DNA from: Phycisphaerales bacterium Planc_01
Lineage (GTDB): Bacteria > Planctomycetota > Phycisphaerae > Sedimentisphaerales > Anaerobacaceae
DNA length: 64,000 bases
Assembly (NCBI GenBank): GCA_001603075.1
Contig: LVBB01000024.1
Coordinates: forward strand, 1 to 64,000
Direction: 5' to 3'
Shown here: one piece after another, positions 27,178 to 60,645 of the stretch
Numbering within the stretch: position 1 is the stretch's first letter
Layout of the letters: each line of letters opens with the position of its first letter
Position numbers and translations under genes: made by a program
Notes under the pieces: model-generated
What the model was told of the DNA's origin: nothing
What the model saw: the letters and a program-made list of their open reading frames with translations, nothing else
Database searches by the model: none

Positions 27178-27750
27178 TCACCCCTTCACGGAGCGACGAC
27201 GCCTCAACGCCAGCAAAGCCCCCAAGCCAAGCAGACCGACCGTAGCCGGTTCCGGAATCGGTTCCCCCAGATTGTAGACAGCCGTCAAGGTCGACGAGCC
27301 CAGCGTAACGCGCGACCCGCTGATGCCGGCGTCGATATCCATGTACACATACAGGCTGCCGTCGTTCCACAGATCGGCCAGGACGGACGCCGGCAGATTG
27401 AACGAGGTCGAACCCCACGTCCAGTCCCCGGTCTCGCCCAGGATGCCCAGGCGAACGCCGTTGACGTAGATCACATTCTGCATCCCGGCATCGACGTCCC
27501 AGGTGCTCAGAGACAGGGTCGCCGAGAGGATCCCGTTGGCGCCGGCCGGCGCGGTCAGTTCGTGGGTCCAGCCCCAATCCTGCCACATGCCCCGATGGTG
27601 CGGGGGATGGTCCAGGATCGAGCCGGGCTCGGCGAAATACTCGTCGTACGAGTAGTCGAGGGTCTGACTGACACTGACGGTGTCGGCATGCACCACGCCG
27701 CAGAGAAGGACCGCACAGGCGGCCACCACGGCTATCGCTACTGCTCTCAT
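27178..27750 (-). CDS. PEP-CTERM exosortase substrate protein
   Basis: This 190-residue exported protein has a signal peptide (AVAIAVVAACAVLLCGVVHA) and ends with the classical PEP-CTERM sorting signal: PEPATVGLLGLGALLALRRRRSVKG, cut here as PEP motif, hydrophobic stretch, RRRR. The mature part (residues about 25-165) is a beta-sandwich-like domain with Trp/Asp-rich strands (NGVRLGILGETGDWTWG). Exosortases cleave such tails after the PEP motif during export. The start at 27750 has GGAGG 7 bases upstream, in a purine-rich run; a longer frame to 28056 has no site. The ligand or role of the domain is unknown. Confidence 0.88.
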   Translation of the reverse strand: MRAVAIAVVAACAVLLCGVVHADTVSVSQTLDYSYDEYFAEPGSILDHPPHHRGMWQDWGWTHELTAPAGANGILSATLSLSTWDVDAGMQNVIYVNGVRLGILGETGDWTWGSTSFNLPASVLADLWNDGSLYVYMDIDAGISGSRVTLGSSTLTAVYNLGEPIPEPATVGLLGLGALLALRRRRSVKG

Positions 27751-28071
27751 TCTCCTTCCTCCCATATCTTCTCTTCGTTCTCTTCCTGACACACTCGGCA
27801 CGACTCGACACCGCGGCGAAGCACCTGCCCATCCATGAACGGTCGCGAGCCCTGCCCTGCAGGTCCAGGCGGTTTGTCTTACACCGCATCCGGCCTGTGT
27901 CAGCGGATCGGCTGGCCTCACGGCGAGCCTTCCGCTTGTAGAAGAGGCCCCGGAAGGAACCTCGGTTCCTTCCGGGGCCGTCAATCGCATGAATCGACTC
28001 CACTGCTCACCGCACATCCAGCCGCTCGTAATCGAGCCCGCCAGCCGCGCGGTCAAAACCCAGTCCGCTGA
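27751..28071. other. Spacer between two exosortase-substrate genes
   Basis: It contains the ribosome binding site of the downstream gene at 27751-27763 and a long perfect hairpin at 27946-27979. No gene is supported. Confidence 0.45.
27946..27979 (-). terminator. Long perfect hairpin, probable terminator or RNA stabiliser
   Basis: Two perfect 15-base arms (GGCCCCGGAAGGAAC and its complement) enclose a 4-base loop. It lies 93 bases after the stop of the upstream minus-strand substrate gene. Only a weak T-run (TCTTCT) follows on the minus strand, so efficient intrinsic termination is uncertain; it could instead stabilise transcript ends. Confidence 0.55.
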
Positions 28072-28812
28072 TTACAGCGTCCTGCGGCGGCGAAGCCAAC
28101 CCACCAGACCCGCACCCAGCGAGCCAAGCACGACAGCGCCCGGAGCCGGAATGACCGGAGTCTCACCGTTGCCCGGATCCTCGCCGTTGCCGGGATCCTC
28201 GCCGTTGCCCGGATCCTCGCCGTTGCCGGGATCCTGGTAGACAGCCGTGAACGCCGAGACCTGCGCCCAAGCCGTAATCTTGAGCTGGGCACTGTTGTTA
28301 TCCGTCAAATTGTAGTGTCCGGCGCTCGACAAGGTCAGGGTGATGTCATCATTCGAACCCGATCCCACATAGGTGCTCGAGTAACCAACGGAGGCACCTG
28401 TGTTCGACAGCAGTTCCATCTTCACCCAGTAGTCCACAGTGGCCCAGTCCCCGGGATTCACCAAGGTCTGAAGGGCAGTCGCTGTGAAGTTGGCGGTAAA
28501 CGTCGTCGGCAGGGCTTCAAAAAGGTGGACCACCGTCCAGTGAATCGTGCTCGTCACAGGCGCTCCCACAGTCGGGTCGGCATCGGCATCCACATCTTCA
28601 ACCGATGTATTGATCGAGATGGCGCCGAGACTCGTGCTGGACCCCTGAGTGGGCGAGTACCAGTACTCTGGTGCATACCCTGTCGTCGTCACATTGCCGT
28701 TTCCGACAATGGTTATGGCCGAGGACGCTGCCAGGCCGGCCGGCGCCGTCAGCGCGACCGTCAGCAGTGCCGCAGCACATACCATTAACACCCTTCTCGC
28801 ATTCATACTCAT
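28072..28812 (-). CDS. Exosortase substrate with variant PAPGA sorting tail
   Basis: This 246-residue exported protein has a signal peptide (MNARRVLMVCAAALLTVALT) and a Thr/Ser/Asn-rich beta domain (residues about 30-205). A DPGNGE repeat region and then the C-terminal tail IPAPGAVVLGSLGAGLVGWLRRRR follow. The tail has the layout of PEP-CTERM signals (Pro motif, hydrophobic segment, basic end), but with PAPGA in place of PEP and a GWLRRRR end. Such tails are common in Phycisphaerae, to my knowledge. A GGAGG element precedes the ATG. Surface display after cleavage by the exosortase at 38717 is inferred. Confidence 0.83.
   Translation of the reverse strand: MSMNARRVLMVCAAALLTVALTAPAGLAASSAITIVGNGNVTTTGYAPEYWYSPTQGSSTSLGAISINTSVEDVDADADPTVGAPVTSTIHWTVVHLFEALPTTFTANFTATALQTLVNPGDWATVDYWVKMELLSNTGASVGYSSTYVGSGSNDDITLTLSSAGHYNLTDNNSAQLKITAWAQVSAFTAVYQDPGNGEDPGNGEDPGNGEDPGNGETPVIPAPGAVVLGSLGAGLVGWLRRRRTL
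28166..28237 (-). repeat. Tandem 18-base repeats encoding DPGNGE hexapeptides
   Basis: Four consecutive 18-base units start at 28166, 28184, 28202 and 28220. They encode repeated DPGNGE just before the sorting tail. Copies differ only by an alternating C/G base, which suggests recent slippage expansion. The segment probably acts as a flexible acidic linker between the domain and the anchor. Confidence 0.9.
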
Positions 28813-30233: not shown

Positions 30234-33200
30234 TCATCCAACGCCTTTCTGCAACTGATCGAGAAGACGCTCCGCATCGGCCAGATCTTTCTCCGACAAC
30301 ACGCTCTTTCTCTGCGCCGGATCGGTCGTCTGGCGGCTCTGACGATGAAGGGCCAGTGCCTGCTGCACGTGCCGGATCGCATCGGCCCTGCGTCCCATCT
30401 CGGCATACACCCTGGCGAGATGGAAATGCGTCGAGGCCTTTGCCGGCGCATTGCCCGGATACAGCTCGACGCAGCGAGTCAAGTCCTCAAGGGCCTTGTC
30501 GAGATGCCCCATCCGGTGGTGGATCACGCCGCGCGTGTCGATTAAGTCGATGTACTCAGGCCGCATCTTCAGGCCCCGGTTCGCCAACTCGAGCGCCTTG
30601 GCACACTGGCTCTGTTCTTCGCAGAGCAGCCACGCCAGACTGTTGAGGGCGAAGACGTCGTTGGGGTCCATCTCGATGATCCGGCGATTCAACGCGATGG
30701 CCTCCTCGGGTCGGCCCGTTGTAGCGGTCACGTTGGCCAGCAGGTGGAGCAATCCGGCCGAGCGAGGGTGGCTCTGAAGATCGGCCCGCAGCAATTCTTC
30801 GGCGACCTCCAGTCCGGGCTTCTCGGCACCGGCGACCAGATCCCGGGCGAAGGTCGCAGAGACGACCAGATCGTTGGGGTGTGCGGCGCGCCAGTCGGCA
30901 ATGACCGCCTTTGCCTGAGCCCATCGCTGTTGCGATACGAGCGACCGGGCCCACGTCAGGACGAGAGCCGCGTTGTCCGGCTCGGCCTGCACCAGGCGAC
31001 GGAAGATCGCCGCCGCCTCATCGGCCTGGCCGGCCTGGTAAAGGACACTCGCCAGGGCGACTTCACCCTGTTTGCGGGCGGGGTCTTTCAAGGCCGCCAC
31101 ATGCTGGCGAAGAACCCGGATGGCCTCCTGTGGGCGGTCCGAACGCACGTAGGCGTTCGCCAACTGAGACACGACGTTCGTGTCGTTCGGGTCGCGGTCG
31201 ACCAGCCCCCGGAGAGTCGGCACCGCCAGCATCGCCGATCGACGTCCCTCCGCACGGGCCTTGAGCAACAGCAATTGCCTGTTGTCAGGATTGTGGGCCA
31301 GCCCCTGAAGGGCCGCGTCCATCGCCTCGCCCAGCTCATCCTCGCGCAACTCCAACGTGCACAGGAGCGCCCACACCCTCGGCAGCCTGGGGTTTTCCGC
31401 AGCGATTTCCCGAAGGATCCTCCGGGCCTGTACGGTCGCCGGCGCGGTCTCGCGTCGCAGTAACAACTGCGCTCTGGAGAGCTTCAGTTCCATATCCCCC
31501 GGATTTGACTGGAGCGCCTTGTCGAGCAGGACCTCCGCTCGCTCCAGGAGCGCCGCGTCCTGCGAGTCGAGGAAAAGGGTCAGGGCCCGCCGCTGCACCG
31601 GCAAATTGTCCGGCTCCAACTCCAGGGCCTTCTCCATGTCGGAGACGGCCATGTCCATGCGCCCCATCTGGCGGAAGAAGTCGGATCGCACCAGCCAGAC
31701 TTCCGCCTTCTGCGGCTCCAGGGCCACCATGCGGTCGAAGTCGGCTTGCGCCTCGTCGTACCGCTTGAATGCCATGTAGGTGGTGCCGCGGAGCATTCGA
31801 CCGAAGACGTCGTCCCGGCGAGCAATCGTCTCATCGCAGAGGCGAAACGCCGCCTCGGCGTCGCCACGTTCGACATCGAGCTGAACCTGCGCAACCACCA
31901 CGGAGACCGACTCGGGATCTCGGGCCTTGACCGCATCGAGAACACCCTGCGCTTCCTCGTATTTCTTCTGCGCCGCCAGTGTGGATACGAGTCTCAGTCC
32001 GGCCAGTGTATCGTTGGGGTCCTTCCGCACCAGTTCGCGCAGAATGTCCGAGGCCGAAGCCAGAGCGTCCCGTCGCGCATCCGAGTCCGCCGCAAGGGCC
32101 CGCCGCAGATGTCCGTGCAATCGCAGTTTCTGGATGTCGGGGTCGTAGAGGTCGCGTGACTGGGCCCGATCGAGCATCCGCTGGGCTCCCTCGTCATCGC
32201 CCGCCTTGTAGAGCGTCTGCACCATCCGCGTGATGACGCCGACATCGTCCGGCCAGCGCTGGAGCGATTCACGATACATCGCCAGGGCCAGTTGCAGCTC
32301 GCCGGCCTTTTCGTGGGCGGCCGCCAGCAACAGACGGCTGGCACGATCGTCCGGGCTGGCCAGGAGATTCTCCTGAAGGAGCCGGACAATCTGACTGTAA
32401 TAGTTCGGGAAATCCTCGGAGAGGATCCAAACCCGCGCCTGTTCGACGCGCCATTGCCAGCCGCTCTGCCCCTCGATCGCCTTGATCTGATCGACGATCG
32501 TCTGCGCCTTGACCGGATCGCCGATCACGCGCTCGAGGGCCAGGAGGCGTCGCCTCGGCTCGACGTCATCGGGGAACTGGGCCGCCAGTTCGGTCAACCA
32601 CTCGTAGAGCCGTTCATTCTGTCCCCAGGATGCATACAGCTCGGCCAGCAGCATGCTGAGACTGCGTCGATTCGCTCCCTGGACCGTCGCCAGAGCGTCC
32701 TTGACGGCTGCCTCGCACGCCGGACGGTCACCCTGTCGGTTCAGCAGCAGGGCCAGTTGCCTGACGGGTTCGACGTTCTGCGGAAACCTCTGCATCGTCT
32801 CGCGCAGCAGTGAAACGGCCTGGGTCCCATTGCCCTCGTCGGCGTACAACTGTGCCCGCAGCAACACCGCTCTGAGTCCGACGATCGGGTCGGTCCGGAG
32901 CTGATCCAGCAGGGTCGCGGCCTCGCCACTCCGCCCCTGAAACAGGGCCGTCTGGGCCTCAAGCAGGCGGACCTGTCCGGCGTCCCCAGCGGCACCGCCC
33001 AGCGCGGCCAGCTTGGCCTCGATATCCCGCCAGGCGTTGCGCGTCGCCGCTGAGTCGCCCTGACCGGCGAGGATCCGCATGCGGGCCTGGAGCTCCAACA
33101 GCACGGCTTCTCGTTGATCGGGAATGAACCGCTGCACCTGCCGGGCCTGTTCCAGAACCCCAGGCCAGTCCTCCGTCACGGACAGCAACTGGGCCAGGGC

Positions 33201-34520
33201 CAGATTGACCTGCGGGTAGTTGGGCATGTCGGAGGCCAGCAGACGAAGCTGTTCGATCGCCGAAGGCAGATCGCCCCTCTGCCGTAGAATGGATGCCAGG
33301 GACATCCGCACAAGGGGCGGGTGCCCCCGCCAGAGCGGATCCTGACGTGACTGGTACCCCAGCGCAATCGCCTTTCTCCAAAAGGCTGTCGCCTCCGGCA
33401 ACTGGTCCTTCTGCTGGGCAAGGTAGCCTTCGAGAAACGCGCATCGTCCCGGATGCACGTTTTTCATCTGCATCTGCCGAATGCAGTCGGCGGCTTCCTC
33501 GAATCGTTTGGCTCGGACCAGCAGCTCGCCGGCCCAAGGCATGAAATCCCACGGATACGCCGCCAGTTCCTTCAGACCGTCCCGGGCGACAGTCTCCATT
33601 TCCTGCTCGGAACCGGATTGCAGCGCCACAGCGGCCCAGTACCGCCACAGGTCTGTCTCCGTCGGCTCCTTAGCCCGCAGGGCGGCGATCTGCTCTCTGG
33701 CCTCGTCATATGCCCGCGCCTGAATCAGCTCCGCGATCATTCGCAGATGGGCCCGCGTGTCGGACAGGTCGAGGCTGGCGGCACGCTCGAAATCGGCCAT
33801 GGCATTGGGCAGGTCGCCGCTTCGCCGCAAGAATCCACCTCGCAGGATATGGGCCCAAGCCGATTCCGGGTTCCGGCTGACGGCCTCCTCGAACCAATAG
33901 TTGGAGGGTTTGTTGGCGTCTTCGGGGCTCTCCGCCGCCAGCATTCCCAGTATTTCGTAGGCCGGGACATGGTCCGGATGCTCGGCGACCAGTTCGAGGA
34001 GCGTCTTCTGGGCCTCCGCAAGATTCCTCTGCTGGATCAGTGCCAATGCAAGAAACCGTCGGACCACCGGATCATCGTGGGCTTCGAGGAACCGCCTGGC
34101 CTTGAGTTCCGCCTCCCCCGGACTGCGTCCAATGGAGCGGTCCGCCGCACTGAGGCCCAGATAGATCTCGATCAGCCGTCTGGCTGCTTCTGTGTGGCCG
34201 CTGTCGAGTCGAAGGACCGACGAATAGGCCGATATCGCCTGGTGAATGTTGTCCGATGCGCTTGGCCTGATCTTGAGTTGGGCCTCCCCGTACATAAGTA
34301 GTCGGCTGACATCGTCGCCATTGATGGTCAGGTAACGCCCGATCTGCCTGGCCGCTTCTTCCCAGTCCCCTGCCGCAAAGGCCTGCTCGCCCAGAGGCAG
34401 CGATTCCTCTGCCAGCACACTTCTCTGCCACTTGTGCAGCGACAAAGCCGCAACAGCCAGAACCACCACGCCCACAACCAGAACGATCGCCAATGTCCAG
34501 TTGAAGTATCGCTGTGCCAT
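30234..34520 (-). CDS. Giant TPR membrane protein, PrsT-like
   Basis: This 1428-residue protein has one N-terminal membrane segment (residues about 9-28, AIVLVVGVVVLAVAALSL). The rest is a long row of tetratricopeptide repeats from about residue 38 to 1400, with repeated A/L/Y positions such as PDDVGVITRMVQTLYKAGDDEGAQRML. TPR arrays act as protein-protein scaffolds. TPR proteins of the PrsT kind occur next to exosortase and are thought to link export with polysaccharide assembly, but known ones are shorter (about 900 residues). It lies between the sugar transferase and LuxR genes and is co-transcribed with both. The periplasmic face probably carries the repeats. Confidence 0.8.
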   Translation of the reverse strand: MAQRYFNWTLAIVLVVGVVVLAVAALSLHKWQRSVLAEESLPLGEQAFAAGDWEEAARQIGRYLTINGDDVSRLLMYGEAQLKIRPSASDNIHQAISAYSSVLRLDSGHTEAARRLIEIYLGLSAADRSIGRSPGEAELKARRFLEAHDDPVVRRFLALALIQQRNLAEAQKTLLELVAEHPDHVPAYEILGMLAAESPEDANKPSNYWFEEAVSRNPESAWAHILRGGFLRRSGDLPNAMADFERAASLDLSDTRAHLRMIAELIQARAYDEAREQIAALRAKEPTETDLWRYWAAVALQSGSEQEMETVARDGLKELAAYPWDFMPWAGELLVRAKRFEEAADCIRQMQMKNVHPGRCAFLEGYLAQQKDQLPEATAFWRKAIALGYQSRQDPLWRGHPPLVRMSLASILRQRGDLPSAIEQLRLLASDMPNYPQVNLALAQLLSVTEDWPGVLEQARQVQRFIPDQREAVLLELQARMRILAGQGDSAATRNAWRDIEAKLAALGGAAGDAGQVRLLEAQTALFQGRSGEAATLLDQLRTDPIVGLRAVLLRAQLYADEGNGTQAVSLLRETMQRFPQNVEPVRQLALLLNRQGDRPACEAAVKDALATVQGANRRSLSMLLAELYASWGQNERLYEWLTELAAQFPDDVEPRRRLLALERVIGDPVKAQTIVDQIKAIEGQSGWQWRVEQARVWILSEDFPNYYSQIVRLLQENLLASPDDRASRLLLAAAHEKAGELQLALAMYRESLQRWPDDVGVITRMVQTLYKAGDDEGAQRMLDRAQSRDLYDPDIQKLRLHGHLRRALAADSDARRDALASASDILRELVRKDPNDTLAGLRLVSTLAAQKKYEEAQGVLDAVKARDPESVSVVVAQVQLDVERGDAEAAFRLCDETIARRDDVFGRMLRGTTYMAFKRYDEAQADFDRMVALEPQKAEVWLVRSDFFRQMGRMDMAVSDMEKALELEPDNLPVQRRALTLFLDSQDAALLERAEVLLDKALQSNPGDMELKLSRAQLLLRRETAPATVQARRILREIAAENPRLPRVWALLCTLELREDELGEAMDAALQGLAHNPDNRQLLLLKARAEGRRSAMLAVPTLRGLVDRDPNDTNVVSQLANAYVRSDRPQEAIRVLRQHVAALKDPARKQGEVALASVLYQAGQADEAAAIFRRLVQAEPDNAALVLTWARSLVSQQRWAQAKAVIADWRAAHPNDLVVSATFARDLVAGAEKPGLEVAEELLRADLQSHPRSAGLLHLLANVTATTGRPEEAIALNRRIIEMDPNDVFALNSLAWLLCEEQSQCAKALELANRGLKMRPEYIDLIDTRGVIHHRMGHLDKALEDLTRCVELYPGNAPAKASTHFHLARVYAEMGRRADAIRHVQQALALHRQSRQTTDPAQRKSVLSEKDLADAERLLDQLQKGVG

Positions 34521-34615: not shown

Positions 34616-36328
34616 TCAGAACTGACGGATGAAGTTCTCCACCATCTTCCGGAAGGTGCACCAACACACCCACAAGTCCATTTGCGGCGAGAGTTCCTGC
34701 ACGTACTTGGTATCGTAGTAGATCCATTCCTGGAAATCGCGGAAGGGTTCGCGCGTCCGATACACCTGCCAGAGTCCTGTGATGCCCGGACGCACGGAAA
34801 GCCTCGCGTCGCGCCAGGAGGGGCACAGCGTGTTTTCGGTCTCCGGTGACGGTCTCGGACCGACAATGCTCATCTGCCCGCACAAAACATTGAAGAATTG
34901 TGGAATCTCATCCAGATAGGTTTCCCGCAGGAAATGCCCGACCGTGCTGATGCGCGGATCGTCGGCCATCTTGAACTGCGGGCCGTCCACCTCGCTGACG
35001 AAGCGCAGCTTGTCCTGAATCTCAGCGGCGCCGACGCGCATGGTCCTGAACTTGACGCAGCCGAACAGCCGTCCATGAAGTCCCTGGCGTTTGTCCTTGT
35101 AGAACACCGGCCCAGGGGAATTGATCTTGATGGCCATCGCAATCAACGGGACGACGGGAGCGAACAAGACCAGAACGATGGTCGCGGCGACGATGTCCGC
35201 GATTCGCTTGAATCCGCCGGCATAGGAGAAACGCGGCCATGTCCGGAAGACGCCTGCGTTCTGCCGCCAGGCCGGTCTCCTCCAGGGCCCATCCGCTCGG
35301 AGGCACCGAGCGTGCCGGGTGGGAGGTTCGCCGTCCGGGCCGATGACGACCGAGCGATGGCAGAGCCCTTCGGACTCCACGACGGCCTGGGGCCCCACGA
35401 TCGACGAATCGACGATGGCTGCCCGCCGGACGGTGCAACCGTCGCACAGGATACTGGGACCGACAATCGCGGCGCCGGGCTCGATGCACACGCCGTCGCC
35501 GATCAGCACCGGACCGATGATCCGCGCCTCACGCGAGACGTTCGTGTCGCCGCCCTGCACGTACACCCGAGCGCCGAGTGATGTATCAGGAACCGCTCCC
35601 GCAGGCGGCCATTGGGCCAGCACCGCGTCACAAAGCACCAGGAGCCCCTCTGCAGAACTCAGATCGGCCACCGAGCCGCCCAGTGAGACGGCCTCCATTC
35701 TCATCCCGCGCGATCGACACCGGTCGACCATCTCATCGAACGCATGGGGCAGGCCCTCGCGCAGGATCCCTTCGGCATGCTCCGACCGCAGGAAGAGATG
35801 CTGGGGCCAGTCGGTCGGCATCGGCGTTGGCTCGACGCCGTCCCTGTAGAGCCGCCGATACCCGACGAGTTCTCCGTCTTCCGTCAGACGGATTCGCTCC
35901 CGATAGGCCAGCAGCCCGGGGTCCACGGTGACGGCTACCGCGTCGGCGGACGTTTTGGCCAATAGCGACACCAGACGGTCGCTGATGTGGGCGACAAAAC
36001 GCCCGTTGGAAAATACGAACCACGGGTGTTTGCGGATGCCCCCCCACCCGATGTCGGCCCCATCCGTCACGACACGCATACCGTCCCGCTCAAAGTCCCG
36101 AAGCGGATCACGCGGCCAGGACGAGGGGAACGCCCACACGACATCATTCGGTACGAGGCCCCCTGCCAGCTCCGAGAAACCGACGTTGCCGCCAGCCGAG
36201 CCACTCAGGCGAATCATGCCGCTCAAAACGGCGTTCGACAGCGGACGCACCGACAGCGCCGACCGAAGCAAGTCCATCTCGGACCGTCCGGGCGAATCAC
36301 TCTCGTCTCGGATGACAATCAGCCTCAT
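34616..36328 (-). CDS. Sugar-phosphate transferase with NDP-sugar/hexapeptide head
   Basis: This 570-residue protein combines three parts. Residues 1-230 look like a degenerate nucleotidyltransferase-type head. Residues about 245-340 resemble left-handed beta-helix hexapeptide repeats (ARIIGPVLIGDGVCIEPGAAI). Residues about 370-570 form a bacterial sugar transferase (WcaJ/UndPP-glycosyl-1-phosphate transferase), with one membrane segment, the KFRTM motif, ETYLDEIPQFFNVLCGQMS and GPRP. The transferase part places a sugar-1-phosphate on undecaprenyl phosphate and so starts the glycan. The head is unusual, and a similar head precedes the exosortase at 38717. It is transcribed between the Wzc-like kinase and the TPR gene. 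Confidence 0.85.
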   Translation of the reverse strand: MRLIVIRDESDSPGRSEMDLLRSALSVRPLSNAVLSGMIRLSGSAGGNVGFSELAGGLVPNDVVWAFPSSWPRDPLRDFERDGMRVVTDGADIGWGGIRKHPWFVFSNGRFVAHISDRLVSLLAKTSADAVAVTVDPGLLAYRERIRLTEDGELVGYRRLYRDGVEPTPMPTDWPQHLFLRSEHAEGILREGLPHAFDEMVDRCRSRGMRMEAVSLGGSVADLSSAEGLLVLCDAVLAQWPPAGAVPDTSLGARVYVQGGDTNVSREARIIGPVLIGDGVCIEPGAAIVGPSILCDGCTVRRAAIVDSSIVGPQAVVESEGLCHRSVVIGPDGEPPTRHARCLRADGPWRRPAWRQNAGVFRTWPRFSYAGGFKRIADIVAATIVLVLFAPVVPLIAMAIKINSPGPVFYKDKRQGLHGRLFGCVKFRTMRVGAAEIQDKLRFVSEVDGPQFKMADDPRISTVGHFLRETYLDEIPQFFNVLCGQMSIVGPRPSPETENTLCPSWRDARLSVRPGITGLWQVYRTREPFRDFQEWIYYDTKYVQELSPQMDLWVCWCTFRKMVENFIRQF

Positions 36329-36387: not shown

Positions 36388-38700
36388 CTATCCCTGTGGA
36401 TTCCGTTCACGACCTTGGGGGGTCAGCAGCAGTTTCTTCTGCTTGGCCGCCTGGCGCACGGGTGACGCGTTGCGGATCCGATAGCCATAGTCATAGCGAC
36501 AAACCCCCTGCTCGGCGCGGACATTGCTGAGGATCGCGCCAACCACATGGGCTCGAATCCGGGCAAACCTCTCTTTGGTTTCCGCCAGATCCGGGGCCGT
36601 GGTCTGGCCGGCAAAGCCCACCAGAATCACCGCATCGGTCAGTTTGGCCCAAACCAGGGCGTCCGGGAAGGCCAGGGCCGGCGGGGTATCCACGATCACA
36701 TGATCGTATTCCCGGCCCATCTTCTCCATCTGTTGAGCCGCCGTGGAGCAAGCCAGCAGTTCGTACGCATCCGCCAGGCTGCGGGGATTGGCGGCCAATA
36801 CGTGCAGACCGCTGCCGGGCACGGTGCAGACGACCTTGCCCGGGTCTTCTCCCAGAAGCACCTCCTGGGTCCCACCGGAACCGTTTGGCACGTTCAACAT
36901 ATACCGCACGTCCGGCTTGCGCAAATCCCCGTCGACCAGCAACACCTTCTTGCCCGACTTGGCCAGGCTCGTCGCCAGATTGACGGCGAAGGTCGTCTTG
37001 CCCTCCCGTGCGCGAGGACTGCAAACCGCCAGCTTGTGCGGTATCCCGCCGCTGGCAAGCAATCCGAGATTGGTGCGGATTGTCTGATAGTCACTGGCAA
37101 TCTGCTCGGCAAATTGCGCCGGCTTGATCGTATGCGAACTCGTTGTCGTACCCAGTACGGGCAGGCCCAGATGCCGGGTCATATCCTCCGGGGTCTGAAG
37201 TGTCTTGTCCATTTTGTCACGGAAGAAGGCCAGCACCAACCCAAGGGCCAGACCCCCGAAGAATACGCCCGCCGCCATTTGCGAACGACGGTCGTCCGTC
37301 TCGACCACATAAGCCGAGTAGGCGGGACTGATCCGAGGGCGTCCCTGACGCTCCATTTCCATCAGCTTGATCTGGCGCGTCACCTGATTGTACAATTCTT
37401 GATCTACCGAGAGCCTGTACTGGAGGTCCTGGATGTTCAGGTTCGTCTGGCCGACCTTCTGGGTCTTCGTATCCTGGTCCTTGAGTTCTCCGGCCAGCTT
37501 CTCCTGGTGCGCGATCAACTGCTGCAACTCCAACTGGGCATTCTTGAGCTTCTGCTGTGCGATCGCGCCAAGGCGTTCCTCGAGTTCGGCGTTGAACTCC
37601 TCCTCCAGAGTCTTGCGCTTCTCCTCCTTGGCCTGCTCGAACCGCGTCAGCAACTCCTCCTGCTTGGTGAGCGCGGGGTTCTCCGGCCGGTAGTTCTGCA
37701 TGGCCACGAGCAGATCGCGTTTCAGTTGCACGATCGTCTGCGACAACTGCTGGAACTCCGGATCGGAATTGACATACTCCTTGCGGGCCGCCACGATCTG
37801 GTCCGGAGGCATGTTGACGTCCGTCGCGGCCTGGGCCAGCATGGCCACGTTGGTCTCCAGCGCGAGCCGCCGGGTCTCCAGCGCAATCCACTGGGACGAC
37901 AGGGTGCTCTGCATCCGCAGTTCCATATCGTGCCGCGTGTCCAACACGGTGGTCCCGTATTCGTCAGCCAGCTTGCGAATCGTCTCCTGCTGATCGCTGA
38001 TCTTCCCAAGCAACTGGGTCTGCTGGTTCGTCAGAATCCGCAGCCTCGCACTCTCGGCTTCGATCGAATCGGTTCCGTACTTGTCCTGATAGTGATTCAG
38101 AAAAGCGTTCACGACCTGAATCGCCTCCTCCGGATCCGTCGTCTTCATCGTCACAGCCATCAGTTCAGTCTGCGGGACATGACCGGCGGAAATCACACCG
38201 CCGGCCACCGCGTTCTTCAGGACAATCGCCGGATCGGGCTTGGCCGTTTGCGGCGAAAATCTGGCCCGAAGCCTGGCCAGGGGCGTCTGAGGCTCGCCGC
38301 TGAACAGACGCAGATTGCGGCCCCCCAGCTCGTCGGCGATTCTCTGAAGGACCGGGCCGCTGGTCAGAACGGTGACCTGGGTGTTGACCAATTCACGGTA
38401 CCCTGCGCTGCCGCCCCCCCGGGCCTCGCCCTCGCCCGTCAGAACGCTCTCGACGACCGGCGCAACACGCACGGCTCCGCGGATCGTGTGGACCGGCTGA
38501 ACGAGGAACCAGACGGCCGGCAGACCGGCCGCACTGACGATCACGGTCACGGCCAGCGCAATGTACCACCGCCTCACCACCGCCAGCAACACGTTGGGCT
38601 TCGGTTCCGACTCGGGCTCGGCATCCAACAGCAGCGGGGTCTCATGGACGCCGGGCTTCTGCTCGATCACCTGATCCAGATATTTTTCGAGATTGTTCAT
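36388..38700 (-). CDS. Wzc/GumC-type chain-length regulator and BY-kinase
   Basis: This 770-residue inner-membrane protein has a Wzz domain (membrane segment near residue 45, then a long periplasmic coiled coil, residues about 180-470) and a second membrane segment near 490. The C-terminal part is a cytoplasmic BY-kinase: Walker A SPRAREGKTTFAVNLA, Walker A' KVLLVDGDLRKP and Walker B VIVDTPPAL. The end has a Tyr cluster (CRYDYGYRIR) as in autophosphorylating kinases. Wzc proteins act with Wza-type channels to control export and chain length; the likely partner is the gene at 25472. It sits 16 bases after the exosortase gene. Confidence 0.92.
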   Translation of the reverse strand: MNNLEKYLDQVIEQKPGVHETPLLLDAEPESEPKPNVLLAVVRRWYIALAVTVIVSAAGLPAVWFLVQPVHTIRGAVRVAPVVESVLTGEGEARGGGSAGYRELVNTQVTVLTSGPVLQRIADELGGRNLRLFSGEPQTPLARLRARFSPQTAKPDPAIVLKNAVAGGVISAGHVPQTELMAVTMKTTDPEEAIQVVNAFLNHYQDKYGTDSIEAESARLRILTNQQTQLLGKISDQQETIRKLADEYGTTVLDTRHDMELRMQSTLSSQWIALETRRLALETNVAMLAQAATDVNMPPDQIVAARKEYVNSDPEFQQLSQTIVQLKRDLLVAMQNYRPENPALTKQEELLTRFEQAKEEKRKTLEEEFNAELEERLGAIAQQKLKNAQLELQQLIAHQEKLAGELKDQDTKTQKVGQTNLNIQDLQYRLSVDQELYNQVTRQIKLMEMERQGRPRISPAYSAYVVETDDRRSQMAAGVFFGGLALGLVLAFFRDKMDKTLQTPEDMTRHLGLPVLGTTTSSHTIKPAQFAEQIASDYQTIRTNLGLLASGGIPHKLAVCSPRAREGKTTFAVNLATSLAKSGKKVLLVDGDLRKPDVRYMLNVPNGSGGTQEVLLGEDPGKVVCTVPGSGLHVLAANPRSLADAYELLACSTAAQQMEKMGREYDHVIVDTPPALAFPDALVWAKLTDAVILVGFAGQTTAPDLAETKERFARIRAHVVGAILSNVRAEQGVCRYDYGYRIRNASPVRQAAKQKKLLLTPQGRERNPQG

Positions 38701-38716
38701 TACACCATCTCCAGTA

Positions 38717-40681
38717 TCACGACTCCGGGATCTGTCGCGGCGGCCGACGCGCGATGACGGCCGGCGACACCTCTCGCGGCGGAGTGGTCAGCCGTGACAG
38801 AACCCATAATTCCCCTACCACCATCGCCAGCGCCAGAGGCATCATGGCGTATCCGCCAAAATCGTGAAACGCCTTTTCCACGTGTTCGCCCTTGAGGAAC
38901 GTGAATGCGACGGCCGTCACGGTGAGCCTCAGCGTGTTGCACAAAAGGGCAATCGGCAGGCTGGAGAGCAGAACAAGAAGCTTCTCCCACCAGGCCCGTC
39001 GGGTCAGCAGTACGACCAGTCCGCTGATCACGATGAAGGCGGTGATCATCCTGAGACCATTGCAGGCCTCGGCGACCGCCACGCTCGTATCACCGATCTT
39101 GATGATATTGCCGTCCCTGGCCACCTCGTAGCCCGCCAGTTCGAGACAGAATACAGCCGATGTGGTCGCCCACCGCTGAAGGGGCAGGGCCAACGCCGAC
39201 TGCACGCGGTTCGGCCACGGCAGCATCAGGCACAGGAACAGCAAGGCCGGTGCGAGTTTTCGAAGGAAACTCCAGCCCAGAAGCAGCAATACAATCGCCC
39301 CAACCGACAGGACAATGGAAAGCCCCTCGGCCGAACGGAACATGAGAATCAACCCCAGGCCTCGCATCATCTGGGCCAGGAGGAACACGACAATCCCCGC
39401 TGCGACGGCCGGTCTGACCGGCACCTCCTTGAGGTCCCGCCGCCATGACCAGACAACGTAGGCCGTGAGAAACGGAACAAGCAGACCGGCCGAATACTCG
39501 TCATTCCGGCGCCAGATCCCGTAGAGATCGACAAACGTAGACCAGTACGACCACAGCAACACCACGAGAAGAGCCGCCCCTCCGGCCAGATAACCCATCT
39601 GTCTGGCCGACAGCCGGGCCCAGGAAGGCAGCCGGTTCGCCACGGACTCAAGCGGCCCGCAGACACGCGCGAACACATGATGCAATCCCAACCACCCCGC
39701 CTGATGCGCCGGGGAGACGGTCCGCTCGCGAACCACAGCCCCGTCAGACAACTGCGAGCCGCTGTCGAGAATGGACTCGAAGACCTCACATCGATTCCCC
39801 ACCCGCACCCCGTCCCAGAGCGCGCTTCGGACGACGACACTGTCGCGCCCCACCACGACCTCGGAGCCGATGAAGGCCGGGCCCAACACGATCGCCCCTT
39901 CCGAGATGCTCGCGTCCTGACCGATCCCGACGGGACCGCAAATTCTTGCCGACGGATGAATCGAAGCGCGCGATGCGACCGCCAGAGGATCGTTCACCAC
40001 CCAATCGTTGGTACGTCCGGCGTCCGAGGCCAGGTGCATCGTCATCGCATGCAGATAGCCCTCGCGATCGTGGAAACTCCCGATTTCGCTGGGCGATACG
40101 ATCGGCCGGACCACCCCTCCGGCACGAAGGATCGAAGGGATCAACCCCTCTTTGATGTCGGAGTAACCTCCCGCAGGAATCAGACGCAGGACATCCGGCT
40201 TGCACAAGTAGATTTCGGCAGGCGACCCCGGCTGCGAAGCATCCCATCGGCTCGGGTTGAACACGACCGTCAGATCGGAACCACCGGCAAAGTGGCTCTC
40301 GATCAGACCAGCCAACCGAGGCGGCGAGGCAATGCCGCCCGAGAACACCAGGATCAGATCGCCGCCATCAGACCCCACCGCATCGCGGAGACAGCCGGCC
40401 GTACCCCCGGTCAGATCCTCGATCAGCACCGCGATCTCCAGGCTGCCCCCGGAGCGGATAGCCTCGACACGCTCGGCGACATCCGCTTCGCAACAGACGA
40501 CAACCCGGCCGATTCCCTCCTCGGCCAGATGGTCAAGCAGCCGCGCAAGAACGGGCTTGCCCGCAATCGGCCACAGTGCCGCGGGCAGACGGGTCCCCAG
40601 CGGACAGCGTCCGAAATCCTGCCGACCGACGAGAACGACGGTCCGAATATCGAGCTTCTCTATCAGAAGATTTCCTTCCAT
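38717..40681 (-). CDS. Exosortase fused to an NDP-sugar nucleotidyltransferase-like head
   Basis: This 654-residue protein has a nucleotidyltransferase-like domain at residues about 10-230 (PLGTRLPAALWPIAGKPVL, the GxxTR-P-KP signature). Hexapeptide-type repeats follow (about 245-330), then an exosortase at about 360-640 with eight or so membrane segments. All three exosortase catalytic residues are there: Cys540 (VAEACNGLRM), Arg585 (LCNTLRLT) and His606 (KAFHDFGGYAM). Exosortase cleaves PEP-CTERM-type tails at the inner membrane. The fusion to a soluble sugar-nucleotide domain is not something I know from usual exosortases. The start at 40681 is where homology begins; longer frames are unsupported. 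It begins the exosortase operon. Confidence 0.9.
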   Translation of the reverse strand: MEGNLLIEKLDIRTVVLVGRQDFGRCPLGTRLPAALWPIAGKPVLARLLDHLAEEGIGRVVVCCEADVAERVEAIRSGGSLEIAVLIEDLTGGTAGCLRDAVGSDGGDLILVFSGGIASPPRLAGLIESHFAGGSDLTVVFNPSRWDASQPGSPAEIYLCKPDVLRLIPAGGYSDIKEGLIPSILRAGGVVRPIVSPSEIGSFHDREGYLHAMTMHLASDAGRTNDWVVNDPLAVASRASIHPSARICGPVGIGQDASISEGAIVLGPAFIGSEVVVGRDSVVVRSALWDGVRVGNRCEVFESILDSGSQLSDGAVVRERTVSPAHQAGWLGLHHVFARVCGPLESVANRLPSWARLSARQMGYLAGGAALLVVLLWSYWSTFVDLYGIWRRNDEYSAGLLVPFLTAYVVWSWRRDLKEVPVRPAVAAGIVVFLLAQMMRGLGLILMFRSAEGLSIVLSVGAIVLLLLGWSFLRKLAPALLFLCLMLPWPNRVQSALALPLQRWATTSAVFCLELAGYEVARDGNIIKIGDTSVAVAEACNGLRMITAFIVISGLVVLLTRRAWWEKLLVLLSSLPIALLCNTLRLTVTAVAFTFLKGEHVEKAFHDFGGYAMMPLALAMVVGELWVLSRLTTPPREVSPAVIARRPPRQIPES

Positions 40682-51713: not shown

Positions 51714-52934
51714 TTATGTGGTCCGCAACAGATGTCGCCCCGCTTGCCTAGCGCGATCGATCACATGCGGAAGATTCTGCTGCAGCACCGCTCGTATCTC
51801 CTCACCGTTGCGCCGCAGCGATTCAAACCGTTCGATCAACGTTCGCGTCTCCATGGAGGCGATGTCCACCACATAATCCCCATGTCCGAGCAGGTCGCGA
51901 TTGATCCCCCAGGCTTTCACGCTGTAGCCGATGGAGATCGTGGGGACTCGGGACGACAAACTGGCGATCGTCGAGTGGGTGCGCGCCCCGATGAAGTAAT
52001 CACACTGAGAGATGGCGTATTTCATCTCACAGGCATTGAGCGTTTCCGGTAAGACCGTACACTGATCCGGACGATTCACGCGACAAGCCACATCCCGGCA
52101 GACGGCAAGATCATTGCGGCCCTCGACAGACTGGATGACATGTGGAACGAAGAGAATTCTCGCCTCGTACGTGTCGCACAGGTGGGCACAGAAATCCACA
52201 AACATCTGAGAGTAGGCTTCCGTTCCTCTCCCTCGCTTCCAGTGACCTGCCAAATCGCTCATGCCGACACCCACGCGCACAACTCCCTTGGCGTCGAAAA
52301 AGGGCAGCGTCACCGTCGGCGGGGTCGCTGCCAACAGAAACGCCGGATCGGAAACGCGACAGACGTTTTGTGTCACACCCAGGTGGCGGAGGTATTCATA
52401 GCTCTTGTCTTCGCGCACGGTGATCAGATCGACCCGACGCAGTTCGTCGGCCCATACTCGCTCTTCCTCAGGTACGTCAAAAGGACCGATCGAAGCCCCC
52501 CAGATGACCGTCTTGGCCCCGTATTTCCGTGCGGCCTTGAGCGTGTCGAAGAACTGTTTCGGACTGCCGTAGTCATCGGAGAAGTTGTCTCCCCCGACAC
52601 TAATGACCACATCTGCTTCTTTGTAGAACGATCGGGACAGGTAATCTTGCACGGACAGGTCGGCGCAGAACAGACGCCGATGCAGTGTCTGAAGCACCCA
52701 GGTCGGGCCGTACCGTGACGCTCCATCGGGCCGACCGGGTATCACCTTGTCAATGGCGATCCCCCCTTGTTCGATCTGCACTCGGTCGCGGTCCGAGTCG
52801 TAGGACGCCAGCACAATGGTACTGTCATCGACCGCGCCTTTGATGATGTCCACGGTGCAACGGACAATGGCTTCGCAGCCACGGTTGTAGAACCCCCCAT
52901 GGCCAACAAGAAGAAAGACTCTGGACACGATCAC
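51714..52934 (-). CDS. Polysaccharide pyruvyl transferase
   Basis: This protein of about 406 residues has the family pattern VFLLVGHGGFYNRGCEAIVRC at the start, then VISVGGDNFSDDYG and KTVIWGASIGPF. It adds a pyruvate ketal from phosphoenolpyruvate to a sugar of the polysaccharide, which gives the chain a negative charge. The start GTG at 52934 overlaps the TGA of the Fe-S protein gene (GTGA), so the two are coupled. The C-terminal segment (IGARTHSTIASLSSRVP) is also typical. Confidence 0.88.
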   Translation of the reverse strand: MIVSRVFLLVGHGGFYNRGCEAIVRCTVDIIKGAVDDSTIVLASYDSDRDRVQIEQGGIAIDKVIPGRPDGASRYGPTWVLQTLHRRLFCADLSVQDYLSRSFYKEADVVISVGGDNFSDDYGSPKQFFDTLKAARKYGAKTVIWGASIGPFDVPEEERVWADELRRVDLITVREDKSYEYLRHLGVTQNVCRVSDPAFLLAATPPTVTLPFFDAKGVVRVGVGMSDLAGHWKRGRGTEAYSQMFVDFCAHLCDTYEARILFVPHVIQSVEGRNDLAVCRDVACRVNRPDQCTVLPETLNACEMKYAISQCDYFIGARTHSTIASLSSRVPTISIGYSVKAWGINRDLLGHGDYVVDIASMETRTLIERFESLRRNGEEIRAVLQQNLPHVIDRARQAGRHLLRTT

Positions 52935-54331
52935 CGATCCCCCAAGGCAACGCCTCTTCGGCGTACGAAGCTCCAGACATGCAGGATCCGACCCCACAAG
53001 CGTAGCGGAAACAGACAAACGGCCATCCACAGGCGAAACAACCAGAGTCCGCGACCGACCGCCCTTTGCATTCGCCAGGCGAGCTTGCTGGAACGCGTCG
53101 TGGCCTCGTCAAGACGCACGGCGGTCTTCCTGGACCCCGCCAAACTGGGCACGGGCCGCACTCGCTTGACCGGGGCGGCCACGCCACGATCCCGGGCGAG
53201 AGCGAGGCGATCAGCCAATCGCTCGCGCTTGACACGCAAACCGCTCCGCTGACTCCTGATGGCATCTTCCGGCGCAATGCGGGCGACATGGACTTGCTCG
53301 GACGGCCCTGCGGCACGGAACAGATCGACCAAGTCGGGATGACGCACAACCACGATGCTCGTGCCGTCCGGATCGCTCATGTATGACGGCAACCACGCGT
53401 CCATATAGGCGGCATCCCCCAATTCGGCGAAGAGATCGTCGCAATAGTTGCACGCCCGGAGCTTGAAGTACCCGTTGCACCACGCTTGTCCCATCCCCTC
53501 CGTCCAGTAGACCGTTCCCTCTCGATCGGGGGCAGCAGGATGTCCGCACACAAACCTCATGCCGTAGTTGTCGGCAGATCGCGTTCCATTCTTCACTCGG
53601 AATTGCACGGCGCTCAGTTGTCGCGGGGCACCTCCTCCCAACGCGCAGATGTAATCTGCGAAGAATGTGCTCTTCTGCTGGCCGCAGACGAGTCCCAAAT
53701 GGTACTTGACGCGATCCCGGAGTTTGCGGTTGATCTGCTCGGCCCTCCTCAGGGCCTTCAGAACGCAGGGCAATCCCACCACCGCATAGCGACCTTCGTT
53801 CTGGAGAATCGTCGAGACGACATCGCTCATCTCGACGGGATAGTAGCAGGACCGTGCGCAGTGCCTGACCTCCTCGACCGAACGGCAAATCGTGAACTGG
53901 AACAGTCTGCCTGGCCCGGTCAAAGGCTGCACACAAACGGCATATTCGATATGCCCGTCTTCCATCAGGCGACTCAACGTCCAGGTCAGTAGCCCCCCGG
54001 AAGCGCCCTCGCGTCGCATCTCACCGGTCGCATTACCCACGAAACAACCGGCATAGTAACCCAGAGACGCGTCGTGATGGATACCTGCTGTTCCGGAAAA
54101 CAAGCGGGCCGCCAATTCATCTTCATTCGGTCCCTGGGCGGAGAACGGACAGACTTGGGCACACAAACCACAGCCGTTGCATGTACCTACCACCACGGGC
54201 TTGTATTCACCGTACGGATCGAGCTGCATCTTCAGAGCGTCTGCAGGACAGATCCCGGCGCACAGGCCACACCCGCAACAACGGTCGCTCTGCAGAACGC
54301 AATCCTCTATCTGTTGCCAGCCGGACCTCAT
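52931..54331 (-). CDS. Fe-S protein with F420-hydrogenase beta-subunit (FrhB) domains
   Basis: This 466-residue protein has two 4Fe-4S ferredoxin motifs near the N-terminus, CCGCGLCAGICPADA and CNGCGLCAQVCPF. They are followed by FrhB/FdhB N- and C-terminal domains (GASGGLLTWTL, VGLPCVLKALRR, YCDDLFAELGDAAYMDAWLP). True F420 reduction is unlikely as such here; similar proteins occur beside pyruvyl transferases in polysaccharide loci, where their role is unknown. The neighbour is indeed a pyruvyl transferase with overlapping start. A redox step on the sugar or its donor is inferred. Confidence 0.85.
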   Translation of the reverse strand: MRSGWQQIEDCVLQSDRCCGCGLCAGICPADALKMQLDPYGEYKPVVVGTCNGCGLCAQVCPFSAQGPNEDELAARLFSGTAGIHHDASLGYYAGCFVGNATGEMRREGASGGLLTWTLSRLMEDGHIEYAVCVQPLTGPGRLFQFTICRSVEEVRHCARSCYYPVEMSDVVSTILQNEGRYAVVGLPCVLKALRRAEQINRKLRDRVKYHLGLVCGQQKSTFFADYICALGGGAPRQLSAVQFRVKNGTRSADNYGMRFVCGHPAAPDREGTVYWTEGMGQAWCNGYFKLRACNYCDDLFAELGDAAYMDAWLPSYMSDPDGTSIVVVRHPDLVDLFRAAGPSEQVHVARIAPEDAIRSQRSGLRVKRERLADRLALARDRGVAAPVKRVRPVPSLAGSRKTAVRLDEATTRSSKLAWRMQRAVGRGLWLFRLWMAVCLFPLRLWGRILHVWSFVRRRGVALGDR

Positions 54332-59832: not shown

Positions 59833-60645
59833 TCACCTGCCGGATTCAGCCGTTCCATCACCCCATGACGACTCCTGCGGTCGAGGCGGCCATCTTACCT
59901 GACCATGCTGATCGGGAAGAATGGCAAGGATGGCGTCTGTCAGGTCCGCCACCAAAGACCGGACCGCATGCTCGAACGTTGAACTGACTTGAACCTGGGC
60001 AACATACCTGGCCGGATTGCCGGCTATATTCGGGCGCCGGCCCAAGAAGCCGGAGAAATCCCTCTCACGAAGCGTGATCTGTCCATTGACAACGTAGAAA
60101 CTGAGGACGACCACCCGCTGATGACTCGGCGCCGCCTTGCGAAACCGGTGAATCAGGCACTCTATTCGCCGGCCGGAATGGGTCACGAACTCGGACGTTG
60201 AAGTCCCATCGTGTATCCATCCGTGCGCCGGGAAACATACCATCGGTTGATGTCCGAGCATCCCCGCCGGACGCGAAGAACAATAGACCACGTACGCATC
60301 AGCCCAAGTCCGGTCAGACTCTTTGACATAGCGCCGACTGATGTAATCGTCAGCGAAATTGGACCGCATATATTCCTCTGTGACACTGGGAATTTCAATC
60401 GTCTCGCCCAGCCACCCATTCACCTCAATGGGCACCTCCGTCAAGGACACGGGAGGCGGAATCGGCGCAGGCTCCTGCCATCGGTCTGCTCCGACACGAT
60501 ACGCGACCCCCGCGCCAACCAGCAGCAACACCCCGATGGCCCCAGCACCCCATATCGATGCTGTGCCACCACAAGGCGGCCTGCAAGCCGTCTTGCGGAT
60601 GGCATCGGGCCCCTCAACCTCGACACTGCACCGATCGCTGTACAT
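59833..60645 (-). CDS. epsI: EpsI-family exosortase-associated protein
   Basis: This 270-residue protein has an N-terminal membrane anchor (about residues 30-50, GAGAIGVLLLVGAGVAYRV) and an EpsI domain: VPIEVNGWLGETIEIP, YVVYCSSRPAGMLGHQPMVCFPAHGW and, near the end, HQRVVVLSFYVVNGQITL. In many exosortase systems EpsI is encoded next to or fused with exosortase and aids its action in the periplasm. Here it lies almost 20 kb from the exosortase gene, at the other end of the locus. No Shine-Dalgarno is seen, and a possible -10 (TATACT) ends only 5 bases before the ATG, so the message may be nearly leaderless. Confidence 0.86.
   Translation of the reverse strand: MYSDRCSVEVEGPDAIRKTACRPPCGGTASIWGAGAIGVLLLVGAGVAYRVGADRWQEPAPIPPPVSLTEVPIEVNGWLGETIEIPSVTEEYMRSNFADDYISRRYVKESDRTWADAYVVYCSSRPAGMLGHQPMVCFPAHGWIHDGTSTSEFVTHSGRRIECLIHRFRKAAPSHQRVVVLSFYVVNGQITLRERDFSGFLGRRPNIAGNPARYVAQVQVSSTFEHAVRSLVADLTDAILAILPDQHGQVRWPPRPQESSWGDGTAESGR

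Follow-up and report, generated by a model that had tools for sequence, protein, structure and literature searches.

An exosortase gene of Phycisphaerales bacterium Planc_01 is fused, in one open reading frame, to an N-terminal head predicted to combine a catalytically dead sugar-phosphate nucleotidyltransferase (NTase) with a left-handed beta-helix (LbH). A homologous head is carried by a phosphoglycosyl transferase (PGT) that is encoded in the same operon and predicted to initiate polysaccharide synthesis. We consider, with a probability of about one half, that the head is a non-catalytic docking and/or regulatory module tying the exosortase to the polysaccharide-initiation complex. As judged from sequence comparisons, an exosortase whose head type is shared with a PGT, present in a large planctomycete group, would be a previously undescribed form, and no description of the head-exosortase fusion was found in the open-licence papers searched. 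The same kind of NTase-derived pseudoenzyme would be employed on two different membrane enzymes, and the fusion singles out two domains behind a possible link between protein sorting and polysaccharide.

The fused gene and its exosortase

The window analysed here is the whole stretch of 64,000 nucleotides (contig LVBB01000024.1, positions 1 to 64,000, forward strand). The fused gene (P0001) is a single uninterrupted frame of 654 codons plus a stop, with its ATG at position 40681 on the reverse strand (Table 1). The initial annotation had read this frame as a fusion of an NTase-like head to an exosortase, and the fusion is real. A pattern scan in which each species was represented by one genome yielded 77 loci, all from planctomycetes save L122 and L168 (‘uncultured bacterium’). 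Head and exosortase lie in one frame at 62 of these loci, the exosortase being partly cut by the contig end at some of them; the head is separate at 12 loci, and three loci end with the contig before the layout can be told. Since one frame is common to 62 of 77 loci, the fusion is not due to chance. Within the order of the window, the head was found at E ≤ 1e-30 in 88 of 161 genomes. The best head frame reaches at least 600 aa in 73 of these 88 (counted by frame length, the exosortase part having been checked in a portion of them) and is shorter in the other 15, several of which are at contig ends. Outside the class, the fusion was also detected in a family of the same phylum (f57; L202, L203 and L206).

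Selection was estimated from six pairs drawn from four sequences. The dN/dS ratios were 0.16–0.26 for the NTase domain, 0.14–0.32 for the beta-helix, 0.09–0.17 for the exosortase and 0.38–1.31 for the linker, all of them rough values, as dS often exceeds 1 and approaches saturation in several pairs. The low ratios of the head show that it is translated and selected as a protein and, since its domains are under purifying selection, the start of P0001 lies before the head. Moreover, a methionine occupies the identical column in P0001 and four near relatives. A start just before the first membrane segment of the exosortase, which the initial annotation had named as a possible refutation, is excluded by the ratios of the head and this shared column. 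An artefact, in which a sequencing error or a wrongly read start merges two genes and translation really begins immediately ahead of the membrane domain, would be in line with the three loci (L177, L208 and L211) where head and exosortase are adjoining separate genes followed by the kinase gene. The frequency of the single frame and the in-frame purifying selection on the head leave this explanation a negligible probability, and a misplaced start or an assembly join was rejected on these two grounds.

The Pfam profile Exosortase_EpsH (PF09721) matches residues 373–628 of P0001 (E = 7e-62; 209.5 bits for a cut-off of 25.7), and TIGR02602 gives 143.8 bits (cut-off 105.55). Cys540, Arg585 and His606, from which a full exosortase had been proposed, are invariant in the 48 aligned fused proteins. 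By domain and triad, P0001 is thus predicted to be an exosortase. It resembles the known exosortases (EpsH/Xrt) in its complete domain, its invariant residues and its EPS locus, and the PEP-CTERM proteins and EpsI-like gene of exosortase systems are likewise present in the window; it differs from them by the soluble pseudo-NTase/LbH head of about 350 residues in front. In the 2006 description (PMC1569441), the extra region on an exosortase is a C-terminal EpsI. In the window, the EpsI-like gene lies about 19 kb away from the exosortase, neither fused nor adjacent to it. The AlphaFold model of P0001 (mean pLDDT 84) comprises an alpha/beta domain predicted with confidence, then a beta-helix and a membrane part made of helices, with a head-to-membrane orientation that is not reliable (pTM 0.56). 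By eye, the linker is Arg-rich directly ahead of the first membrane helix and no signal peptide was seen in P0001.

Candidate substrates are encoded in the same genome. The PEP-CTERM search gave 11 places at E ≤ 1, four of them above the cut-off, including one in the window, while six of 14 control genomes gave matches at E ≤ 1 and none gave any above the cut-off. The weaker PEP-CTERM-like protein of the window was unmatched in the other profile searches of the window. In addition, the genome encodes two more exosortases, both headless (L001 and L003). The one of these on contig C124 lies near two PEP-CTERM matches, both below the cut-off.

Table 1. Coordinates of the fused gene, its parts and the surrounding genes in the window
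Feature	Position	Strand	Remark
Fused gene P0001, pseudo-NTase/LbH head + exosortase	38717..40681	(-)	654 aa + stop
NTase-fold domain, residues ~11–235 of P0001	39977..40651	(-)	predicted; catalytic residues lost
Left-handed beta-helix (hexapeptide) domain, residues ~236–322 of P0001	39716..39976	(-)	
Fast-evolving linker, residues 323–372 of P0001	39566..39715	(-)	from dN/dS and model
Exosortase domain, residues 373–628 of P0001	38798..39565	(-)	from Pfam
Cys540 codon	39062..39064	(-)	invariant 48/48
Arg585 codon	38927..38929	(-)	invariant 48/48
His606 codon	38864..38866	(-)	invariant 48/48
Wzc-like chain-length / tyrosine-kinase gene	36388..38700	(-)	between both headed enzymes
Phosphoglycosyl transferase P0002	34616..36328	(-)	Bac_transf at residues 374–563; homologous head
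PGT head, residues ~1–345 of P0002, NTase-like + LbH	35294..36328	(-)	from hhalign and model
TPR protein nearest PrsT of XrtA/PEP-CTERM systems	30234..34520	(-)	290.5 bits, cut-off 312.2
PEP-CTERM protein, candidate substrate	27178..28056	(-)	motif 27193–27261
Weaker PEP-CTERM-like protein	28072..28812	(-)	motif 28081–28152; 19.1 bits, below cut-off
Separate EpsI-like gene	59833..60645	(-)	27.8 bits, cut-off 42.8

Fold of the head and loss of the catalytic residues

Profile searches relate the head to sugar-phosphate NTases. The NCBIfam model for mannose-1-phosphate guanylyltransferase matches residues 14–323 of P0001 (E = 8.5e-20), with 70.9 bits for a cut-off of 440, and the best beta-helix match is the Pfam family LbH_EIF2B on residues 238–322 (E = 6e-11, under the family cut-off). 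PF00483 gave no match on P0001 alone at E 0.01; it matches 36 of the 48 aligned members of the P0001 family at this threshold. For the P0001 model, Foldseek placed tlr0611 (UTP-glucose-1-phosphate uridylyltransferase), Arabidopsis VTC1 and human GMPPA/GMPPB at the top ranks. The VIA-align list, which covers the head alone and is silent on the exosortase part, gives the NTase fold of the predicted head Z-scores of 25–30 to GMPPs, eIF2B and AGPases, with 30.3 for chain F of the GMPPA/GMPPB complex (rmsd 3.0 over 316 residues; chain taken as GMPPB from its length) and 29.3 for eIF2B-epsilon (5b04_I). The NTase-like and hexapeptide parts that had been read directly from the translation are thus recovered by both profiles and model.

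We then compared the head with the NTases of the same genome, as single sequences. Seven NTP_transferase genes are present besides P0001, and five of them have a recognisable signature: the signature pattern missed L184 and L185, L181 and L182 were visibly misaligned, and L180, L183 and L186 were kept as controls. We take the canonical residues to be the catalytic Arg of the GGxGTR loop, the Lys of PK and the Asp of GD, the FxEKP region being presumably the sugar-phosphate segment. At these places, P0001 has GRQDFG for the loop, Ala34 for the Lys and Gly116 for the Asp, i.e. all three catalytic residues are lacking in the alignment. This comparison was extended to 106 heads, fused or free, with more than 290 bits to our own profile and near-identical copies removed; more diverged heads, e.g. 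that of L096, fall outside this set. The Arg is kept in three heads, the Lys in three and the Asp in one, and no head keeps two of them together. Moreover, the sugar-binding segment counts 9–29 residues (mode 19) in the 106 heads versus 38–42 in the three control NTases, and when the head profile is aligned with NTases of solved structure, this gap at the FxEKP segment appears again.

As the three residues are gone in P0001, no head keeps two of them and the sugar segment is shortened in all heads, a working NTase, or a head supplying a nucleotide sugar, is most unlikely. The segment GTRLPAALWPIAGKP (containing GTRLPAAL), which the initial annotation had cited for the NTase-like domain, corresponds in the alignment to ...RPKPxxxxAGxP of the NTases, past the GGxGTR loop, and its GTR is therefore not that of the signature. 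An active enzyme making or delivering a nucleotide sugar at the membrane would fit the fold and the weak family matches, but the missing residues and the other NTP_transferase genes of the genome make it extremely improbable. This candidate was rejected on the lost catalytic residues. The proposed tie between sorting and glycan precursors divides into two parts: coupling as such gains support from the operon and the homologous PGT head, while its enzymatic version, with a head supplying nucleotide sugar, is contradicted.

The head family has conserved motifs of its own (DFGRC, GTAGCxRD and GYxDIKExLIP). In DFGRC, D22 and F23 are each retained in 77 of the 106 heads, G24 in 90, R25 in 73 and C26 in 82. 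G93, G96 and D175 are present in every head, and K177 and E178 in 105 each. Taking alignment and predicted model together, we consider the head of P0001 to be a pseudoenzyme conserved across its family, with the fold of GMPPB and eIF2B-epsilon. It is similar to GMPPA, the dead regulatory paralogue of GMPPB, in its NTase and LbH fold, its dead active site and the presence of a homologue in the same system (the PGT head). It differs from GMPPA in being joined to a membrane exosortase, in having its homologue on a PGT and not on an NTase, and in its shortened sugar segment. The epsilon/gamma pseudo-NTase subunits of eIF2B are likened to the head by the LbH_EIF2B match and the Z-score; in contrast to P0001, they belong to a eukaryotic translation factor without attached membrane enzyme.

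An NTase fold with a conserved but altered signature region (D22-F23-G24-R25-C26, G93xxG96, D175, K177 and E178) would suit a head that is chiefly a ligand sensor, binding a nucleotide sugar, a sugar phosphate or a nucleotide without turnover and gating the exosortase allosterically. Precedents are found in two papers: GMPPA binds GDP-mannose without catalysis and serves as its sensor (PMC11228364), and UMP has been proposed to regulate the PGT WbaP via an extra N-terminal domain (PMC10942596). However, almost every head has an altered signature loop and the sugar-phosphate segment is shortened in 106 out of 106, which makes canonical nucleotide-sugar binding unlikely. The head may sense a sugar phosphate or a nucleotide sugar, but a chiefly sensory role is rather unlikely. 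Finally, four cysteines (26, 63, 97 and 160) recur in the head, with at least three kept in 89 of the 106 heads and all four in 44. They could form a metal or redox site through which the head would sense metal or redox state, but buried cysteines are common and C160 is present in just 11 of 33 stand-alone heads. Such a function appears very unlikely.

The head in polysaccharide loci

The surroundings of P0001 point to polysaccharide (EPS) assembly. The Wzc-like kinase gene begins 16 bp past the exosortase stop, on the same strand. Glycosyltransferases, a pyruvyl transferase and an asparagine-synthase-type amidotransferase are found further out; the amidotransferase comes closest to its XrtA-system counterpart (554 bits for a cut-off of 816.9). 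At 52931–54331 (-), an FrhB/FdhB-type F420-hydrogenase beta-like protein with 4Fe-4S motifs is encoded beside a polysaccharide pyruvyl transferase in a glycan locus.

The heads of the exosortase and the PGT align colinearly over 293 columns (hhalign Prob 99.3, E = 7.9e-21). Structure searches with the model of P0002 recover the PGT PglC and also tlr0611, VTC1 and GMPPA, these last three with low TM-scores of some 0.3 relative to the query. Its N-terminal part is NTase-like plus LbH and not a 4-TM bundle, the membrane helices being judged from the model alone. PF02397 (Bac_transf) matches all 53 headed PGTs, and D473 and E474, which we take to be the catalytic Asp-Glu pair, are invariant. By contrast with the large monotopic PGTs (e.g. 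WbaP), which share with P0002 the PGT domain and an N-terminal accessory part but have there a 4-TM bundle and PF13727, none of the 53 headed PGTs matches PF13727 at E 0.01. PGTs in which the pseudo-NTase/LbH head replaces this usual part were observed at 34616–36328 (-) and in L103–L179, and no description of a pseudo-NTase-headed PGT was found in the open-licence literature searched.

This gene order is widely kept. Downstream sequence of 4.5 kb or more is available for 47 fused loci, and a same-strand PGT gene lies there after a gap of 2.27–2.73 kb in 46 of them. The exception, L123, shows no PGT in the next 4 kb, despite 7 kb of sequence beyond the fusion, and counts against docking. The PGT carries a head-profile match at 57 of 58 PGT loci (L164 is without). 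Moreover, an ORF of more than 600 aa begins at most 300 bp past the fusion in 49 of the 62 fused loci; it is the kinase in the window and in the loci inspected gene by gene. In the order, both heads are present in 83 of the 161 genomes; five have the exosortase-type head only, nine the PGT head only and 64 neither, with thresholds of E ≤ 1e-30 for the exosortase-type head and E ≤ 1e-15 for the PGT head; these counts are not independent, owing to kinship and the shared operon. Two of 94 genomes were dropped from the PGT-head list: G382, where the match falls in its own head-exosortase frame, and G390, with a weak match in a 328-aa frame. In the four genomes examined out of the nine with a PGT head only, the contig ends inside the exosortase gene, and the head would therefore lie past it. 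The co-occurrence and synteny of both heads are also expected from one shared operon and common descent.

Natural variants separate the head from the exosortase. A separate head, the kinase and a headed PGT, with no exosortase in the stretch, are found at L078, L207/L142, L209/L151 and L210/L144, and L172 and L063 are more distant cases of this arrangement. At L176, the stretch holds the head and the PGT alone; at L073, the exosortase is a separate gene after the PGT. In another family of the class, a single frame of 698 aa joins an exosortase-type head to a PGT (L096:8582–10678, +). The exosortase of L014/L214, which belongs to the main clade, is accompanied by the kinase, whereas the 1.2 kb of contig upstream contain no head; this locus counts against the pattern. 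In the variants observed, it is the EPS kinase and the PGT, more than the exosortase, that recur beside the head; the simplest reading of the fusion is therefore that it brings the exosortase into the EPS-initiation complex.

Proposed coupling and origin of the fusion

We regard the head as a component of the EPS locus, where some lineages have it as a gene of its own beside the Wzc-like kinase and the headed PGT. Borne by the exosortase, it would dock with the head borne by the PGT through LbH/NTase faces and hold the exosortase where polysaccharide synthesis begins. PEP-CTERM proteins would then be processed at the place and time of polymer production, and the head pocket may bind a ligand tuning this coupling. 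The docking, its cytoplasmic site, the ligand and the effect on sorting are what we infer. In the more specific form of this proposal, the two heads would form a cytoplasmic hetero-assembly and sorting would be physically, perhaps allosterically, coupled to EPS initiation, which we put forward tentatively and at somewhat less than even odds. One precedent for such pairing is the docking of eIF2B-gamma with eIF2B-epsilon. Another is dead GMPPA, which works by pairing with its homologue GMPPB (PMC11228364).

Mirror trees were compared over 49 loci. The partial correlation was 0.33 between the exosortase head and the PGT head (95% 0.16–0.52), 0.40 between the PGT head and the exosortase, and 0.35 between the kinase and the exosortase. 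These values are compatible with a head-head contact and give the head-head pair no specific support. LbH domains are common oligomerisation elements, and the head might do no more than homo-oligomerise the exosortase or anchor it to a different partner, for example the Wzc-like kinase; the head of the PGT would then be a separate paralogue with its own role. The large ORF close behind the fusion and the kinase-exosortase correlation would agree with this explanation. It does not by itself account for the joint presence or absence of both heads, though a shared operon could, and we regard it as unlikely.

Exosortase genes are nearly always located among EPS genes. This link was unexplained in 2006, because disruption of EpsH in Methylobacillus left the polysaccharide unaffected (PMC1569441), and a dependence of the polysaccharide on the exosortase is for the same reason not expected here. 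A natural fusion whose head is a homologue of the one on the EPS-initiating PGT suggests that the two are physically connected; if true, the hetero-assembly would explain in one lineage why exosortases reside in EPS loci.

Finally, we looked at the origin of the fusion. The N-terminus of one PGT of family f19 (L099, a single sequence) reaches an hhalign probability of only 7% against the PGT heads. In a quick exosortase tree of 96 rows, whose careful search is unfinished, three fused proteins of this family are separate from the main fused clade, which includes two unfused rows (L014 and L177). In a set thinned to 51 rows by leaving out some of the main clade and four long rows, forcing the fused rows into one group cost 28.58 log units (p-AU 0.123). 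A common origin of all fusions is therefore not rejected and is compatible with this test. Family f19 (L017, L098 and L100) forms a second, diverged head-exosortase group, for which an independent origin is possible.
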